From IMG/VR virus record IMGVR_UViG_3300025941_000064, positions 1 through 36,466 of that record: a DNA stretch of 36,466 bases. One strand, 5' to 3'. Shown piece by piece: positions 5,939 to 16,018 of this stretch. The notes beneath the pieces were generated by a model. The model was given only the letters and a program-made list of their open reading frames with translations. It made no database searches and had not been told where the DNA came from. The stretch is from a virus. Within the stretch, counting starts at the first letter, position 1, and each line of letters opens with the position of its first letter. Both the position numbers and the translations under genes were made by a program.

Positions 5939-6140
5939 TTTCCTTCTTGGGCTGCAATGGGCCGGCATATCATTCGGCATTTGCGTCCTTGTCCTAGTGG
6001 TTTGGCGCATCGGCGCTTTCTTCGTCAGGCTTGCCTACGGCCCGTCGCTGCAGGGCGATGAAGTCGGAGCGCCCGAGGGAGATGCCCGCAATTTCCGTCT
6101 TCGCACCGTCGATGACGACAAGCTTTGGGAGGATCTGTGA
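5931..6140 (+). CDS. Small single-pass membrane protein, 69 aa
   Basis: The ATG at 5931 is preceded by GGAGGT at ideal spacing and overlaps the end of the previous membrane protein in another frame. Residues ~3-35 (LGLQWAGISFGICVLVLVVW, then RIGAFFVRLAYG) form a membrane helix. The rest is a soluble acidic tail ending DDDKLWEDL. It may form a pair with the preceding membrane protein. It lacks a lipobox, and its early location argues against spanins. Confidence 0.6.
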   Translation: MGDFLLGLQWAGISFGICVLVLVVWRIGAFFVRLAYGPSLQGDEVGAPEGDARNFRLRTVDDDKLWEDL

Positions 6141-9207: not shown

Positions 9208-9782
9208 GGCTATTCCCAGATCTATGGCCCTTTGGTGACCTGCAGCCGCATTCCTTTGATTTCATCATGGCCGATCCTGCTTGGACCTATCGCATGTATT
9301 CCGAGGCAGGCGAGGCGAAGTCACCTCAAGCGAAATACCGGACCATGTCGATTGACGAGATCAAGCGGCTACCGGTCCTCGACCTTGCTGCGTCAGACAC
9401 GCTCCTATGGCTCTGGGCGGTCAATCCCATGCTGCCGCAGGCACTGGACGTCATGCGAGCGTGGGGCTTCGAGTTCAAGACGGCCGGCACATGGCTGAAG
9501 ACGACCAAGCACGGAAAGATCAATTTCGGAACCGGCTACATCCTTCGTGGCTCTAATGAGCCTTTCCTGATCGGAACGCGTGGCAGTCCACGCACAGCAA
9601 AGAATGTTCGATCGGGGTTCACCGGCCTTATCCGTGACCATTCCCGCAAGCCAGAGGAAGCCTATGCTGCTGCAGAACGGCTGATGCCTAATGCAAACAG
9701 GCTTGACCTGTTCAGCAGAACTGACCGCAAGGGCTGGACCGCGTGGGGTGATGAAGTCGGAAAATTTGGAGAAGCGGCATGA
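9204..9782 (+). CDS. MT-A70 family adenine-N6 DNA methyltransferase
   Basis: This protein has 192 residues. The catalytic motif appears as ADPAW (residues 23-27) rather than DPPW. It is followed by the family blocks YRTMSIDEIKRLPV, LLWLWAVNPMLPQALDVMRA, NFGTGYILRGSNEPFLIG and FSRTDRKGWTAWG. The family transfers methyl from SAM to adenine N6. No restriction endonuclease partner is adjacent, so this is an orphan enzyme. It likely protects phage DNA or modulates methylation-sensitive transcription. The DPAW variant should be checked for activity. The start overlaps the resolvase stop. Confidence 0.9.
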   Translation: MRLFPDLWPFGDLQPHSFDFIMADPAWTYRMYSEAGEAKSPQAKYRTMSIDEIKRLPVLDLAASDTLLWLWAVNPMLPQALDVMRAWGFEFKTAGTWLKTTKHGKINFGTGYILRGSNEPFLIGTRGSPRTAKNVRSGFTGLIRDHSRKPEEAYAAAERLMPNANRLDLFSRTDRKGWTAWGDEVGKFGEAA

Positions 9783-11218
9783 ACGCCCAACCCCGCGACT
9801 TCATGGACAAGATCACCGAGCAGGATGTGCTCGAGGCCGAGCAGACCGTCTTGTCCTGCTTTATCGCCCGCAACGAGCTGATCGGCGAATGCGGTCTTGT
9901 CGCTGACGACTTCCTTGAAGGACTGCATAAGTCGATCTTTGCGGCGGCGCTGCAGCTTCATGCCGGCCATCAGCATATCAATGCGGTCTCACTCAAGCCG
10001 TTCGTCCCAAAGCAGATCGAAGGGCTCGACATCTCGCCGGCTGCCTATCTGGCTCGGTTGATGACCTCTGGCCTGAGCCCTGCGACCGCTAACCGCTACG
10101 AGGCAAGCCTTCAGATCATCAAGGGCATGACGCTGGCCCGTGAGCTTGGACGCGAGGCTGAGTTCGCGTCCACCGTCGCCAAGGAAGGCCACAGTCTGCT
10201 TACACTAGGCGATGAAATTGAGCAGTTGGAACAGCGGCTTAAGGACATGCGGGCGCGATTTGCGGAAACGACGGCAATTGTATCGCCCGGCTCTTCCTAT
10301 CTCAGCGCCTTTCAAGCCTCATCCAGGCGCGACGGTGTCATCGGAGTACCGATCGGGCTACCCGAGATCGCAACTGTTCTGTCGGAGCCAGTGTTCGAAG
10401 CCGGCAACCTATATGGGTTGCTATCGTCAAGCGGTGAAGGAAAATCTTCCCTGACGATGCAGCTCATCTACCACGCGATCCGCGCCGGCCATCCGGTTCT
10501 CTTCCTCTCCTACGACCAATCTCCAGCCCAATGCGTTCGGCAGATGATCGCGCAGGTATACGAGATCAGCGTCACCCAGCAGCGCGAGCCCATGCGGCTG
10601 ATGAGCCAGAAGGAACAAGACCGGTGCGTCACCTTTGCCAATTGGATCAACCAGCAGCCCTTCGAGATCATCCGCTGCCGGAGAGAGGGCATTGACCGGC
10701 TCGTCGCCTACGCGCGGCGCTTCATCAAGCAGAAAGCCAACGGCAGAACACCTTTCATCGTAATTGACCATATCGGCAAGGTTAAGCCGAAGAACGACAA
10801 GCTCTCGGCAGACCGAATCTCCGGCGACATCACGGTTGAACTGAAGGCCCTGGCCGATGAAGGGGCCGCATCGGTCCTCATTCTCAACCAGCGCAATGGC
10901 GAGAGCGGCAAGCGCCAGAACCCACGCCCGATCGCCAAGGACCTTTATGGCGGTGAGAACGCCCGCACCGACTACGATGCAGTGATGACCCTATACAGGC
11001 CCGAGAAATACAAGAAGGAAATGGAAAAGGTGGCAGCCACCCCGCAGGACTGGAAGATCATCAACTCGGTATTTGGGTCAGACATTGAGGGGATAGCCGA
11101 AATCGCCGCGATAAAGGTCAGGTTTGGCGATCCGTCGCTTGTTGAGCGCGTGAAGTTTGAGGCGGATTTCACCCGTTATGTCTCTATGCAGCCCGAGCGG
11201 CCTCCGGAGTTGTTCTGA
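9779..11218 (+). CDS. DnaB-type replicative helicase
   Basis: This protein has 479 residues. The N-terminal DnaB domain spans ~15-110 (VLEAEQTVLSCFIARNELIG). A linker leads to a RecA-like ATPase with Walker A SSSGEGKSS (Lys222), a LFLSYDQSP sensor segment and Walker B FIVIDHIG (Asp330). VLILNQRNGESGKR and LYGGENARTDYDAVMTLYRP match the late DnaB motifs. It should unwind DNA at the phage fork as a hexamer. No separate primase or loader is evident nearby; the DnaA-like protein at 12676 may help recruit it. Confidence 0.9.
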   Translation: MNAQPRDFMDKITEQDVLEAEQTVLSCFIARNELIGECGLVADDFLEGLHKSIFAAALQLHAGHQHINAVSLKPFVPKQIEGLDISPAAYLARLMTSGLSPATANRYEASLQIIKGMTLARELGREAEFASTVAKEGHSLLTLGDEIEQLEQRLKDMRARFAETTAIVSPGSSYLSAFQASSRRDGVIGVPIGLPEIATVLSEPVFEAGNLYGLLSSSGEGKSSLTMQLIYHAIRAGHPVLFLSYDQSPAQCVRQMIAQVYEISVTQQREPMRLMSQKEQDRCVTFANWINQQPFEIIRCRREGIDRLVAYARRFIKQKANGRTPFIVIDHIGKVKPKNDKLSADRISGDITVELKALADEGAASVLILNQRNGESGKRQNPRPIAKDLYGGENARTDYDAVMTLYRPEKYKKEMEKVAATPQDWKIINSVFGSDIEGIAEIAAIKVRFGDPSLVERVKFEADFTRYVSMQPERPPELF

Positions 11219-12167: not shown

Positions 12168-12679
12168 GCTATGTGCAAGAGCTTCTCAATTTATCTCCAT
12201 GGATTCGCGTGGTCGCAAAGCCCTTCGCTGACGATGTTGAGAATATGCACTGGATCTCAACGCCAAAAGGAGATGAAGGCAATGAGTGGTGCTATGGCTG
12301 CGGCAGCGCAAAAGTCGAAGAATTGCGCACGGCAGATCCTGAACATGCTGACGACTATTTTCTAGATGGTGGGTGGGCCATCGAAGATGATTCCTCTTGC
12401 TGGTGTGAAGGATGTGGTGCTCGGTTAAACTCCATCATGACGGACTATTGCGCAGCGTCGGAGTTAGACCACTATGTCACATATGGCGTCACTCCGTTCT
12501 GCGCCGAAATCGCCTATGACCTCTCCGAGCTGATCGATCACTTCGATTATCAAACAGAGAAATCAGATCCGCGCAATATTGCCGATTGCATCCATCTCGC
12601 TCGCTCTTTCCTAGCCGGATACTACCACCAAGAGATCGTCCAGCCGAGCCAATGGGCCGATGATGGAGGCCGAGCATGA
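12164..12679 (+). CDS. Hypothetical zinc-binding protein
   Basis: This protein has 171 residues. Two cysteine clusters, WCYGCGSAK (residue ~43) and CWCEGCGARL (residue ~83), can together ligate one zinc. The rest is acidic and helical (FCAEIAYDLSELIDHFDYQT, NIADCIHLARSFLAGYYHQE). No enzyme motif is visible. It is translationally coupled to both neighbours. Confidence 0.65.
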   Translation: MSYVQELLNLSPWIRVVAKPFADDVENMHWISTPKGDEGNEWCYGCGSAKVEELRTADPEHADDYFLDGGWAIEDDSSCWCEGCGARLNSIMTDYCAASELDHYVTYGVTPFCAEIAYDLSELIDHFDYQTEKSDPRNIADCIHLARSFLAGYYHQEIVQPSQWADDGGRA

Positions 12680-13392
12680 TGCATATCGAAGCTAGACTAA
12701 TTGCCCACTACAAGCGCGTAGACAAGCGTCTGGGCAAGATCATATCTCCGTCCGTGAAGCTGGTAGCCACTGAAGCTCTGCCGAGCGCTGCTAAGCCCTC
12801 AAAGGCTCCTACCGGCCTTACGCCTCATGAACGCTACGTTTGGAAACGCTGCGAGGAATTCGGCGTCGAGTACGATGTCATCATCGGCAAAGCCCCATCG
12901 CGAGACTACACCACTATCCGGCAATTGATCTGGTACGAGCTTCATTCCAAGTTCAAGATATCCAATGCCAGGATTGGCGCTCTCATGACCAACCGTCATC
13001 CCAGCACCATATTGGACGGCATTCACCGGATAACAGATCGACTGGAATCCGCCGGCCATGATCTTCTCCCGGACGTTCGAAGATTGTTGGATGAGCAGAA
13101 AATCCATGACCGCATCAAGGCGGCATATTCTGTCAAGACTCCAATCTCATTGATTGAAGCACGACACGGTATTGATCGCCGGGCCATTGCTCACGTCGCG
13201 GCTATCATGCGCTGGACGCAACAGGCTGAGAAAAGCACCGAGCCCCGCTATAGGATAGCTCAGATCAGGCGTGAATATTATGCCGGCGTGAAAATCGCCA
13301 TGATTTGCAAAAGGCATCGGCTGACCGATAAGGCGTTCTGGAATCTGCGCAAGAAATTGGGTTGGGAAATTCGGCCGAAGGTGCAGGAATGA
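12676..13392 (+). CDS. DnaA domain-IV-like DNA-binding protein
   Basis: This protein has 238 residues. Residues ~75-120 (SRDYTTIRQLIWYELHSKFK, ISNARIGALMTNRHPSTILD, GIHRI) follow the DnaA C-terminal box-binding domain: 'R...R....YL...' , 'S...IG...G.RDHSTV..' , with H-P-S-T in place of D-H-S-T. A second HTH-like stretch lies at ~165-220. The ATPase region of DnaA is absent, so it binds but cannot remodel an origin. It is probably the phage origin-recognition or helicase-recruitment protein, or a decoy for host DnaA. Confidence 0.75.
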   Translation: MMHIEARLIAHYKRVDKRLGKIISPSVKLVATEALPSAAKPSKAPTGLTPHERYVWKRCEEFGVEYDVIIGKAPSRDYTTIRQLIWYELHSKFKISNARIGALMTNRHPSTILDGIHRITDRLESAGHDLLPDVRRLLDEQKIHDRIKAAYSVKTPISLIEARHGIDRRAIAHVAAIMRWTQQAEKSTEPRYRIAQIRREYYAGVKIAMICKRHRLTDKAFWNLRKKLGWEIRPKVQE

Positions 13393-13844: not shown

Positions 13845-14515
13845 CACGAGACCAGATTGAAGAGCTTTTCATCCAAGCGGCCGAAACGGATCACAGGCTG
13901 CCCGATACGGCTCGTCCAGCGCGTTTGAAGGCTCAAGCTATCCAGTACTATCATTCGCAAGCCGACGTCGCTGGGTGGGGCGCTGAGCGATATGCCGAGG
14001 AACGGGCAGACTTCCTCTCTCACAAGACAACCCGGATACGAACTTCAGACGTCACTAAATGGGAACTGGCGAATGCCCTGATCGTCCTTGTCCCCAGACC
14101 CAAAGATCGTCACTGCCTCTGGCATTGGGCTATTGCCAAGGCTGGGGGAAAATCTTTCAGTAAGTGGTGCCGGGAAGGGTTCAAGGATGTATCGGGCAAC
14201 CTTGTTAAGTTCAGCCGGAACTATGCTCTCGAAAGAAAAAACCGGGCAATATTAGAAATAACATTAGCTTTAGATGGTAAGCCATTGCAGCATAACGAAA
14301 ACGGCCGTTCTGCCACCTTGCGGCGTACCGGCAAAATAAGCGATAAAGACGTCATACTCGCAAGTGACGTGCCCACATATTGGAGAGCCCCAGACGCGAG
14401 GCCGATGGCCTGCGATTTTGACAAGGGACTTCAAAGCTTCGAGTGGGCCGAACTGCAGAACGAACGCCGCCGGCAACGTGACGCTGAAAAGCGCAGACGG
14501 CAGGTAGCCGCATAA
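13841..14515 (+). CDS. Conserved HTH-type protein (DUF6362-like)
   Basis: This protein has 224 residues. Residues ~2-120 (LFIQAAETDHRLPDTARPAR, TTRIRTSDVTKWELANALIV, then LWHWAIAKAGGKSFSKWC) follow a plan seen in DUF6362-type phage proteins: an N-terminal 'A..T...LP' segment, a long helix and an HTH-like core. The C-terminus is very basic (ERRRQRDAEKRRRQVAA). This is the last gene before the 650-base noncoding region. The DUF attribution is from memory. Confidence 0.7.
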   Translation: MTRDQIEELFIQAAETDHRLPDTARPARLKAQAIQYYHSQADVAGWGAERYAEERADFLSHKTTRIRTSDVTKWELANALIVLVPRPKDRHCLWHWAIAKAGGKSFSKWCREGFKDVSGNLVKFSRNYALERKNRAILEITLALDGKPLQHNENGRSATLRRTGKISDKDVILASDVPTYWRAPDARPMACDFDKGLQSFEWAELQNERRRQRDAEKRRRQVAA

Positions 14516-14680
14516 GATTGCTGTACGCGGGTGCAGCACTTCCCCTTAACCGGGGCGCCGATAAGCCAAGGATACGGGTGTCGCCGAGGCCCTTGGAGCC
14601 AATTTGAGGCGTGGCGTCTCAACCGCGAAGGGCCAATGCGTAATAATCGGCCCAACAATTCTAAGCTTAGGCTTCAATGA

Positions 14681-14743
14681 GTGTGGTGGGGTTCGAGTCC
14701 CCCTCGCTGACCGAGCTAAGGTAGCAATACGGTTCGAATCCGT
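14681..14743 (+). other. Two tandem tRNA T-arm look-alikes without tRNA bodies
   Basis: GGGG-TTCGAGT-CCCC (14688-14702) and ACGG-TTCGAAT-CCGT (14729-14743) both match the universal GGTTCRANTCC T-arm. They are only 41 bases apart, too close for two complete tRNAs. No matching 5' acceptor strand, D-arm or anticodon arm could be built around either. They look like T-loop motifs inside the structured RNA, or remnants of tRNA 3' ends. Confidence 0.6.
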
Positions 14744-15117
14744 TCCTGCTTGCAGGTTCTTTGCCAACGTGGAGTTGGGGTCTGGCGGCCGGGGAAGACC
14801 GGCAATGAATTCGAGGCGGATGCCTCAACAAAAACAGAACCCGCGCCGCCTCTCGTAGAAGCGCACCGTTGCGGGTCATTAATCGGGAAGGCGAGGGGTC
14901 TGCCGTAGATAGGAGCGGCAGCTTAAACGAACCAGAGCGACTGGACGCCTTTTCTTCTCGATACCTATTCCTCCCAAGGGGAAGCGGTATACCCGAACGG
15001 GTTAGCCTCGGTTTAATGCGCCGGACTGGTGGCTGGATGGAATCGACGCATCTGCGGTTTTTGTCGCGAACCGTCATCAGATAGCAAAAATGCGAGCCTC
15101 GCGATTGAGGGATTTTC

Positions 15118-15150
15118 AGCCCGATCGGCATAACTGCTGGTCGGGCTTTA
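15118..15150 (+). terminator. 13-bp intrinsic-terminator-like hairpin
   Basis: AGCCCGATCGGCA pairs with TGCTGGTCGGGCT across a TAAC loop, with two G-U pairs. TTTACTGTTT follows. It would end transcripts of the noncoding region 17 bases before the next ATG. The T-run is interrupted, so partial read-through is plausible. Confidence 0.7.
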
Positions 15151-15166
15151 CTGTTTGGAGAGTGTG

Positions 15167-15532: not shown

Positions 15533-16018
15533 ATGCCAGTCCTGAAAAATGCACGGCATGAGAAGTTCAGTCAGCTCCGTGCCCAAGGCAAGACCCAGGA
15601 CGAGGCATACGAACTCGCCGGCTTCAAGCCAAGCAGGGCTCACGCGTCGAGACTGGCAGCAAATGGCAGCATTCAGGCGCGGGTAATAGAAATACAAGGC
15701 CGCGCCGCCGAACGGGCTGCTGTGACCATACAGAGCCTCACCGACGAGCTTGAAGAGGCTCGGGCATTGGCGCTAGCCGAAAAGCAGTCCAGCGCTGCTG
15801 TGACGGCTACATTGGGTAAAGCCAAGCTCCATGGTCTGCTTGTCGACAAGAAGCGTTTGGAGGGACCTGAAGGCGGCCCGGTCCAAATCGACCTAAATGG
15901 GTATTCGCTTGAACAACTCCGTGTCTTCAAAAGCGTTCTCACTGAGCTTGCCGGCGCATCCGGCAGTGATGTTGAGGCAGGTGGAAGCGGAGATCGCGAA
16001 GAGGATAGCGCAGGCTGA
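15533..16018 (+). CDS. Terminase small subunit
   Basis: This protein has 161 residues. KNARHEKFSQLRAQGKTQDE, AYELAGFKPSRAHASRLAAN is the typical TerS N-terminal helix-turn-helix ('K..AY..AG'), which binds the packaging site. A central helical oligomerisation segment (LTDELEEARALALAEKQSSA, KAKLHGLLVDKKRLEGPEGG) and an acidic tail follow. It sits immediately before TerL, with overlapping ends. TerS rings recognise phage DNA and regulate TerL. Confidence 0.85.
   Translation: MPVLKNARHEKFSQLRAQGKTQDEAYELAGFKPSRAHASRLAANGSIQARVIEIQGRAAERAAVTIQSLTDELEEARALALAEKQSSAAVTATLGKAKLHGLLVDKKRLEGPEGGPVQIDLNGYSLEQLRVFKSVLTELAGASGSDVEAGGSGDREEDSAG

Follow-up and report, generated by a model that had tools for sequence, protein, structure and literature searches.

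Positions 14516-15150 of the window, that is the whole 36,466-base stretch of a virus record analyzed here, appear to hold an exchangeable array of short RNA cassettes. One of these, cassette C, appears homologous to the RNA antitoxin of AbiF yet has no AbiF gene beside it, and we lean, with modest confidence, towards the view that it disarms host AbiF. The relatives of the window are prophages and viral contigs, whose named hosts belong to the Rhizobium lusitanum/rhizogenes group and to Sinorhizobium. Comparison with these relatives shows a modular array with covarying stems, homology of cassette C with AbiF-linked RNAs, and the lack of an Abi_2 gene in the records searched. The module letters used below (Rfam names apart) are labels coined in the present analysis.

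The interval lies between a phrog_37864-like gene with its stop at 14515 and an ORF (phrog_33676) that starts at 15155, followed by TerS (start at 15533) and TerL (start at 15897). As the first-pass annotation had noted, the interval is the only long gap in the window that has no plausible gene. Its noncoding character, also claimed there, held up: no ORF of 55 or more amino acids in 14516-15115 displays coding-like third-position GC, and the short frames on both strands matched nothing in Pfam or PHROG. Because domain matches are absent and the composition is not coding-like, we rejected a protein-coding gene in the interval. Rfam scans of the window returned nothing relevant, and neither ARAGORN nor Rfam RF00005 called a tRNA in it. 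BLASTn against phage and plasmid collections matched mainly the C-module region in Sinorhizobium plasmids, and a Xanthomonas phage shared 29 bases. The array could not be assigned a promoter. Elsewhere in the window, positions 12676-13392 encode a phage protein whose DNA-binding domain is that of the bacterial DnaA C-terminus (Bac_DnaA_C); a DnaB-like helicase is encoded nearby, at 9779-11218.

The + strand of the interval folds better than its shuffles (z = -4.0 and -3.1 in two runs), and the - strand does so more weakly (z = -2.4). Because some coding stretches of the window match or exceed this (z = -5.15 at 6001), folding energy alone proves little, and we set it aside as proof of structure. 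An earlier count of at least nine perfect stems stands only in part: most of them are short, and an ungapped inverted-repeat search (pairs of at least 7 nt within 120 nt) returned seven pairs, two of them perfect. Rather, the evidence for structure is covariation in homologues, which reveals many small modules and not one ornate RNA. The earlier proposal of a structured interval sited before TerS is supported, with the structure on the + strand. The 13-bp terminator-like hairpin said to end the interval is likewise present at 15118-15147, with 11 Watson-Crick and 2 G-U pairs (z = -6.8). With the UUU that follows, it forms element T (15118-15149, + strand), which closes the array and is the sole + strand terminator-like site in the interval. 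T closes the same slot in many phages and prophages, whatever stands 5' of it, and is also found elsewhere in genomes, away from terminase genes (L106-L108).

We read the slot in relatives by means of the conserved hairpin T and the phrog_37864-like flanking gene. The first-pass annotation had proposed aligning homologous intervals and searching them for covariation; this was done, and it was positive for several modules. The homologous intervals show no continuous alignment; rather, they contain short modules in differing sets and orders, and T is the only element common to the slots compared. The window reads A, E, E, two T-arm-like motifs, E, C, S, B, X, T. In L260 the order is tRNA-Gly-like, A, E, E, S, T; in L105, C, E opened into a YrlA-like stem, S, B, D, T; and in L002, tRNA-Gly, YrlA-like stem, DUF3800-VII, S, C, T. 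L005 carries three tRNA or tRNA-like genes, E, B, D, X, T; L112 carries several tRNAs, a Y-like stem, S, B, D, D, T; and the S. meliloti plasmids carry E, S, S, C. When the interval was compared by BLAST with 148 Rhizobium genomes, 20 matched, module by module, and cassette C is absent from most arrays. Judged from these comparisons, the contents of the slot are shuffled, gained and lost between rhizobial phages and prophages while enclosed by the same flanking gene and T.

This mosaic bears on the earlier suggestion that the interval is one large RNA of about 635 nt like GOLLD or ROOL. The interval resembles these RNAs in being long, noncoding, structured and phage-borne. It differs from them in that it has no Rfam match (GOLLD and ROOL included, at E up to 10) and consists of separate, shuffled small modules, of which homologues share only some; on these two grounds we rejected a single GOLLD/ROOL-like RNA. 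That the interval is a single large RNA with several domains, belonging to a new class and with branches swapped between phages, is very improbable. All modules do share one direction between one gene and one terminator, and L260 preserves part of the order (A ... E ... S ... T). However, modules occur singly and also alone outside arrays, other orders are seen (C precedes E in L105 and follows S in L002 and L086), the interiors of module S fail to align between copies, and tRNAs interrupt the series. Array copies on S. meliloti pSymB (L086, L087) are flanked by two copies of the sRNA ar35 (RF02346).

Among the window's modules, all on the + strand, module A (14516-14612) comprises a hairpin at 14519-14538, a CCCC/GGGG hairpin and a CCAAGG/CCTTGG helix. 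It recurs at 78-91% identity in the prophage slots L260-L263, L265 and L095, and its long helix exists across prophages in fully paired variants (CCAAGG/CCTTGG, CCAGAG/CTCTGG, CCAACG/CGTTGG). Alignment A4 has 8 cells changed on both sides, compared with 2.9 in shuffles; it comprises seven sequences only, and its first hairpin is misaligned in some rows. Folded alone, module A does no better than its shuffles (z = -0.64). In module S (14883-14961), an 8 bp stem, UCGGGAAG/CUUCUCGA, closes a branched interior that varies between copies; the module folds with z = -2.95 (1 of 200 shuffles). Its closing stem occurs in ten distinct versions; 95% of their cells are paired and three pairs have changed on both sides, which is modest evidence because the two arms were chosen by eye. 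Since the stems of A and S change in step, both modules seem to be maintained as structures. Directly 3' of S lies module B (14961-14990), a hairpin AUACC[UAUUCCUCCCAAGGGGAAGC]GGUAU that also adjoins S in L005, L006, L090, L093-L095, L100, L105, L109, L111 and L112; a pattern search of Rhizobium genomes found it in three places only, in two genomes.

The three E hairpins are simpler. The first (14599-14625, UUGAGGCG/CGUCUCAA, z = -2.2) is of the AATTYGARGC..GCYTCAAC type seen in other arrays, a kind that opens into a YrlA-like stem in L002, L105 and L112. The second (14655-14681, AAGC UUAG GCUU) has a 92% identical piece in the L112 array and is present in L260 as well, and the third (14806-14830, GAGGC GGAU GCCUC, z = -2.7) has a 96% identical piece in L099; the order E, S, T is also that of L260. 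Positions 14683-14745 hold two motifs resembling a tRNA T-arm, GGTTCGAGTCC at 14690 and GGTTCGAATCC at 14731. They are the only two matches in 36 kb, where 0.24 are expected, and may be tRNA relics. Intact tRNAs or tRNA-like genes occupy the same slot in L002, L003, L005, L090, L112 and L260, and these, like the two T-arm motifs, would fit a degenerate tRNA cluster, that is tRNAs, relics and incidental hairpins kept for translation or as recombination fodder, with an abiF hairpin acquired by chance. We consider this quite unlikely, because the window has no callable tRNA, the A and S stems are kept as structures, and C is fully or nearly fully paired in the slot copies L105, L252 and L258. Known phage tRNA clusters resemble the array in the tRNAs of its relatives' slots and in the enrichment of orphan C hairpins near phage tRNAs (see below); they differ in that most modules of the array are not tRNAs.

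Sister arrays contain further recurring RNAs. A YrlA-like match (RF02553) scores 37.9 bits in L002 and 39 bits in L105, below the cut-off of 69, and covers the stem only, without the tRNA-like part. The DUF3800-VII RNA (RF02967) reaches 34.8 bits in L002, just below its cut-off of 36.2, and is recognized in L103 by near-identical sequence. The window differs from these sister arrays in that neither family was found in it. The D modules (L109, L101, L085, L141) are a recurring unnamed RNA type, for which L109 and L101 gave no Rfam match: a closing stem of about 7 bp, a hairpin GGCGTGGAAGGACACGC or similar, a variable part, and CCGGTATCAAGCCCGG beside the 3' strand, a shape like that of a tRNA without its anticodon arm. 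In the sister array L112, positions 1951-1989 weakly match the type-III hammerhead ribozyme (26.7 bits against a cut-off of 48.5), and by eye the hammerhead-like core CUGAAGA...GAAA...UUC is complete, with plausible stems I-III.

Element X (15014-15116, + strand) stands apart from the other modules. It is nearly identical in four records (the window, L005, L090 and L259), and together with the adjoining T it is about 91-94% identical in the latter three. Because it folds no better than its shuffles (z = +1.6), X lacks support as an RNA structure, and a DNA-level role near the terminase genes is possible. A packaging (cos/pac) or other DNA-level site beside TerS, X in particular, would suit both this folding at chance level and the fact that X plus T is the best-conserved DNA piece. 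As a reading of the interval it has very little probability indeed, since X is absent from most phages with the same slot and T also occurs away from terminase genes.

Cassette C (14839-14876, + strand) is by far the best-supported module of the interval, as judged by its homologues. Its predicted architecture consists of a 7 bp outer stem, a 3 bp inner stem, a CUCUCnnnGAA loop and GCGCACC. In the window copy all 10 pairs of the abiF fold form and the conserved CGCCUCUC...GA.GCGCA core is present; it thus has the GCCUCUC loop, GA, GCxCA and outer stem by which the structure and core of abiF RNA are recognized. Even at E up to 10, the window copy goes unreported by the Rfam abiF model (RF03085, cut-off 37 bits), and we therefore regard it as a divergent member of the family; in sister slots the same model scores 52.5 (L105), 52.5 (L094) and 42.8 bits (L071). 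Because Rfam misses the window copy, we scanned viral contigs for the conserved core and obtained matches in at least 119 contigs. Complementary 7-8 bp stems of varied sequence flank 98 of 137 core matches (all loci, among the matches listed).

From 23 equal-length distinct versions, with the window left out, we built model R1; 22 of its rows are orphan phage or prophage hairpins and one comes from an S. meliloti plasmid. Each of the seven outer pairs covaries, with 40 cells changed on both sides compared with 11 in shuffles. The pairing percentage of this alignment is inflated because its rows were pre-filtered for outer-stem pairing (the 98 of 137 that passed); its variety of stems is not. 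R1, whose training rows include close relatives of the window copy (the S. meliloti plasmid, L101 and L102), finds cassette C as its single match in 36 kb, at 53.9 bits and E = 2.2e-10. We abandoned the view that the C stems of phages are letter-for-letter copies of host AbiF stems, as ACCCGCC is the commonest stem everywhere. In three different contigs (L115, L140, L171), a shared motif like CTCGGCCAGnGATGAGCCGGGCG(T/A)AACTA stands 5' of the C hairpin.

Rather than acting against host defence, the modules, C among them, could regulate or process the early/late transcript of the phage itself. In favour of this, T is a strong terminator 5' of the late genes, many C hairpins elsewhere precede a T-run and could terminate transcription, and AbiF RNAs may attenuate their own gene as well (PMC12373285). 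Yet cassette C in the window is followed by CATTAATC, with no T-run, and a terminator needs no invariant CGCCUCUC..GA.GCGCA core, which is kept while the letters of the stem vary freely. The content of the slot also varies between phages, unlike a fixed switch. We thus hold such a regulatory role to be unlikely.

The genomic setting of R1 matches separates two kinds of copies. In 148 Rhizobium genomes R1 has eight matches, five AbiF-linked and three orphan. The five linked copies (L253-L257) lie about 40 nt 5' of an AbiF start codon; the downstream gene of L253 matches Abi_2 at 193 bits, and those of L254-L257 were assigned to AbiF by matching N-terminal sequence. The three orphans (L105, L252, L258) have no downstream AbiF, and all sit in the prophage slot studied here. 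Across Hyphomicrobiales, where AbiF is uncommon (Abi_2 in 11 of 397), an R1 match lies just 5' of the gene in 5 of 11-12 Abi_2 loci: L240, L241, L243 and L250, from the 11 loci found, and L114, to which Rfam abiF had first led and which matches Abi_2 at 182 bits. AbiF is present in at least 5 of the 148 Rhizobium genomes, as found through the RNA. This scarcity in hosts counts against an anti-AbiF role of cassette C.

On the phage side, the window record contains no Abi_2 gene, and its cassette C does not have the position upstream of AbiF that otherwise marks an abiF RNA. Nine virus records related to it and two records of S. meliloti plasmids yielded no Abi_2 either. The four array-carrying host genomes tested also lacked it, which, for the decoy reading, is a further point against. 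All 50 of 50 viral contigs carrying a C hairpin were likewise free of Abi_2, with the qualification that many of the viral records searched are fragments and an AbiF gene may lie elsewhere in the phage. C hairpins with intact, freely varying stems occur in at least about 80 viral contigs. In one prophage (L116), an orphan abiF RNA (37.7 bits) lies between T7-like capsid assembly and major capsid genes.

AbiF is a HEPN ribonuclease toxin, and the abiF and DUF3800 motifs reportedly go back to Weinberg et al. 2017. In C. difficile, an abiF-motif RNA binds AbiF and neutralizes it in trans, that is, it acts as an antitoxin; mutations that break its structure abolish neutralization, and compensatory ones do not (PMC12373285). 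A structural study, as summarized in PMC12737573, gives one bound RNA per AbiF monomer. Based on this precedent, we infer the following sequence of events. The + strand cassettes would fold independently within an array closed by T. Cassette C would be transcribed during infection and its RNA would bind host AbiF, in place of or besides the host antitoxin. AbiF would then stay inactive, and abortive infection would fail. By analogy, the other cassettes probably mimic or replace host RNAs, such as the tRNAs, Y-RNA-like and DUF3800-associated RNAs of sister arrays.

Cassette C shares with abiF RNA (RF03085) the 7+3 bp fold, the CUCUC loop, GAA/GAU and the GCGCA core, and differs in that it has no linked AbiF gene and sits by itself among the RNAs of a phage array. 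The closest functional parallel is pseudo-ToxI of phage phiTE, which blocks ToxIN and suppresses abortive infection (PMC3475682): it too copies the RNA antitoxin of a host and is carried by the phage with no toxin alongside. The ToxI pseudoknot, however, is another RNA family, cassette C is one among many cassettes, and the activity of pseudo-ToxI was shown in phiTE whereas cassette C is known here from its sequence. An abiF RNA has also been annotated in a phage, the cyanophage S-CREM1 (51.6 bits; PMC9964418). This is a single Rfam annotation, and the accessible text of that report discusses no absence of AbiF, decoy role or array.

The DUF3800-VII RNA may, though less certainly, be split in the same way as AbiF RNA, gene-linked in the host and orphan in phages, with DUF3800 as a candidate defence protein. 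In host record L292 it scores 54.1 bits and adjoins a DUF3800 gene (Pfam DUF3800, 7e-10), whereas in the phage arrays L002 and L103 it is an orphan; none of the array-bearing records holds a DUF3800 gene. Orphan C hairpins of viral contigs also lie near tRNAs: 14 of 76 loci are within 500 nt of one, compared with 4.3 for random positions, and none of 2000 random draws reached 14. This pattern suggests that phage 'tRNA islands' also hold orphan partner RNAs. In L224, an orphan C hairpin lies among about 25 clustered tRNAs and a tmRNA, and in the viral contig L133 an orphan AbiF-type hairpin lies just 5' of an apparent tmRNA gene start. Tentatively, and somewhat on the doubtful side, the slot as a whole could be a dedicated, exchangeable RNA anti-defence island that disarms host systems reliant on RNA partners. 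Its contents would then comprise the AbiF antitoxin, the DUF3800-associated RNA, the Y-RNA-like stem, tRNAs and unnamed families (A, S/B, D).

AbiF, its abiF RNA and phage RNA mimicry are already known, and in the open-licence literature searched no phage RNA other than pseudo-ToxI is described as mimicking a defence antitoxin. As far as that literature goes, the modular RNA array is new, as is the window cassette as a homologue of AbiF-type antitoxins. The same holds for the clean split in Rhizobium between AbiF-linked and slot-linked copies and for the apparent abundance of orphan phage copies. RNA antitoxins are the partners of HEPN toxins, the presumed evolutionary source of Cas13. If the slot is indeed an anti-defence island, orphan AbiF-antitoxin mimics would be a widespread form of phage counter-defence. 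If the cassettes are active decoys, RNA mimicry would be a common, overlooked anti-defence strategy, and the unnamed neighboring modules would be candidate RNA partners of unknown host systems. Odd noncoding gaps near the tRNA clusters of phages would thereby become a directly testable question.
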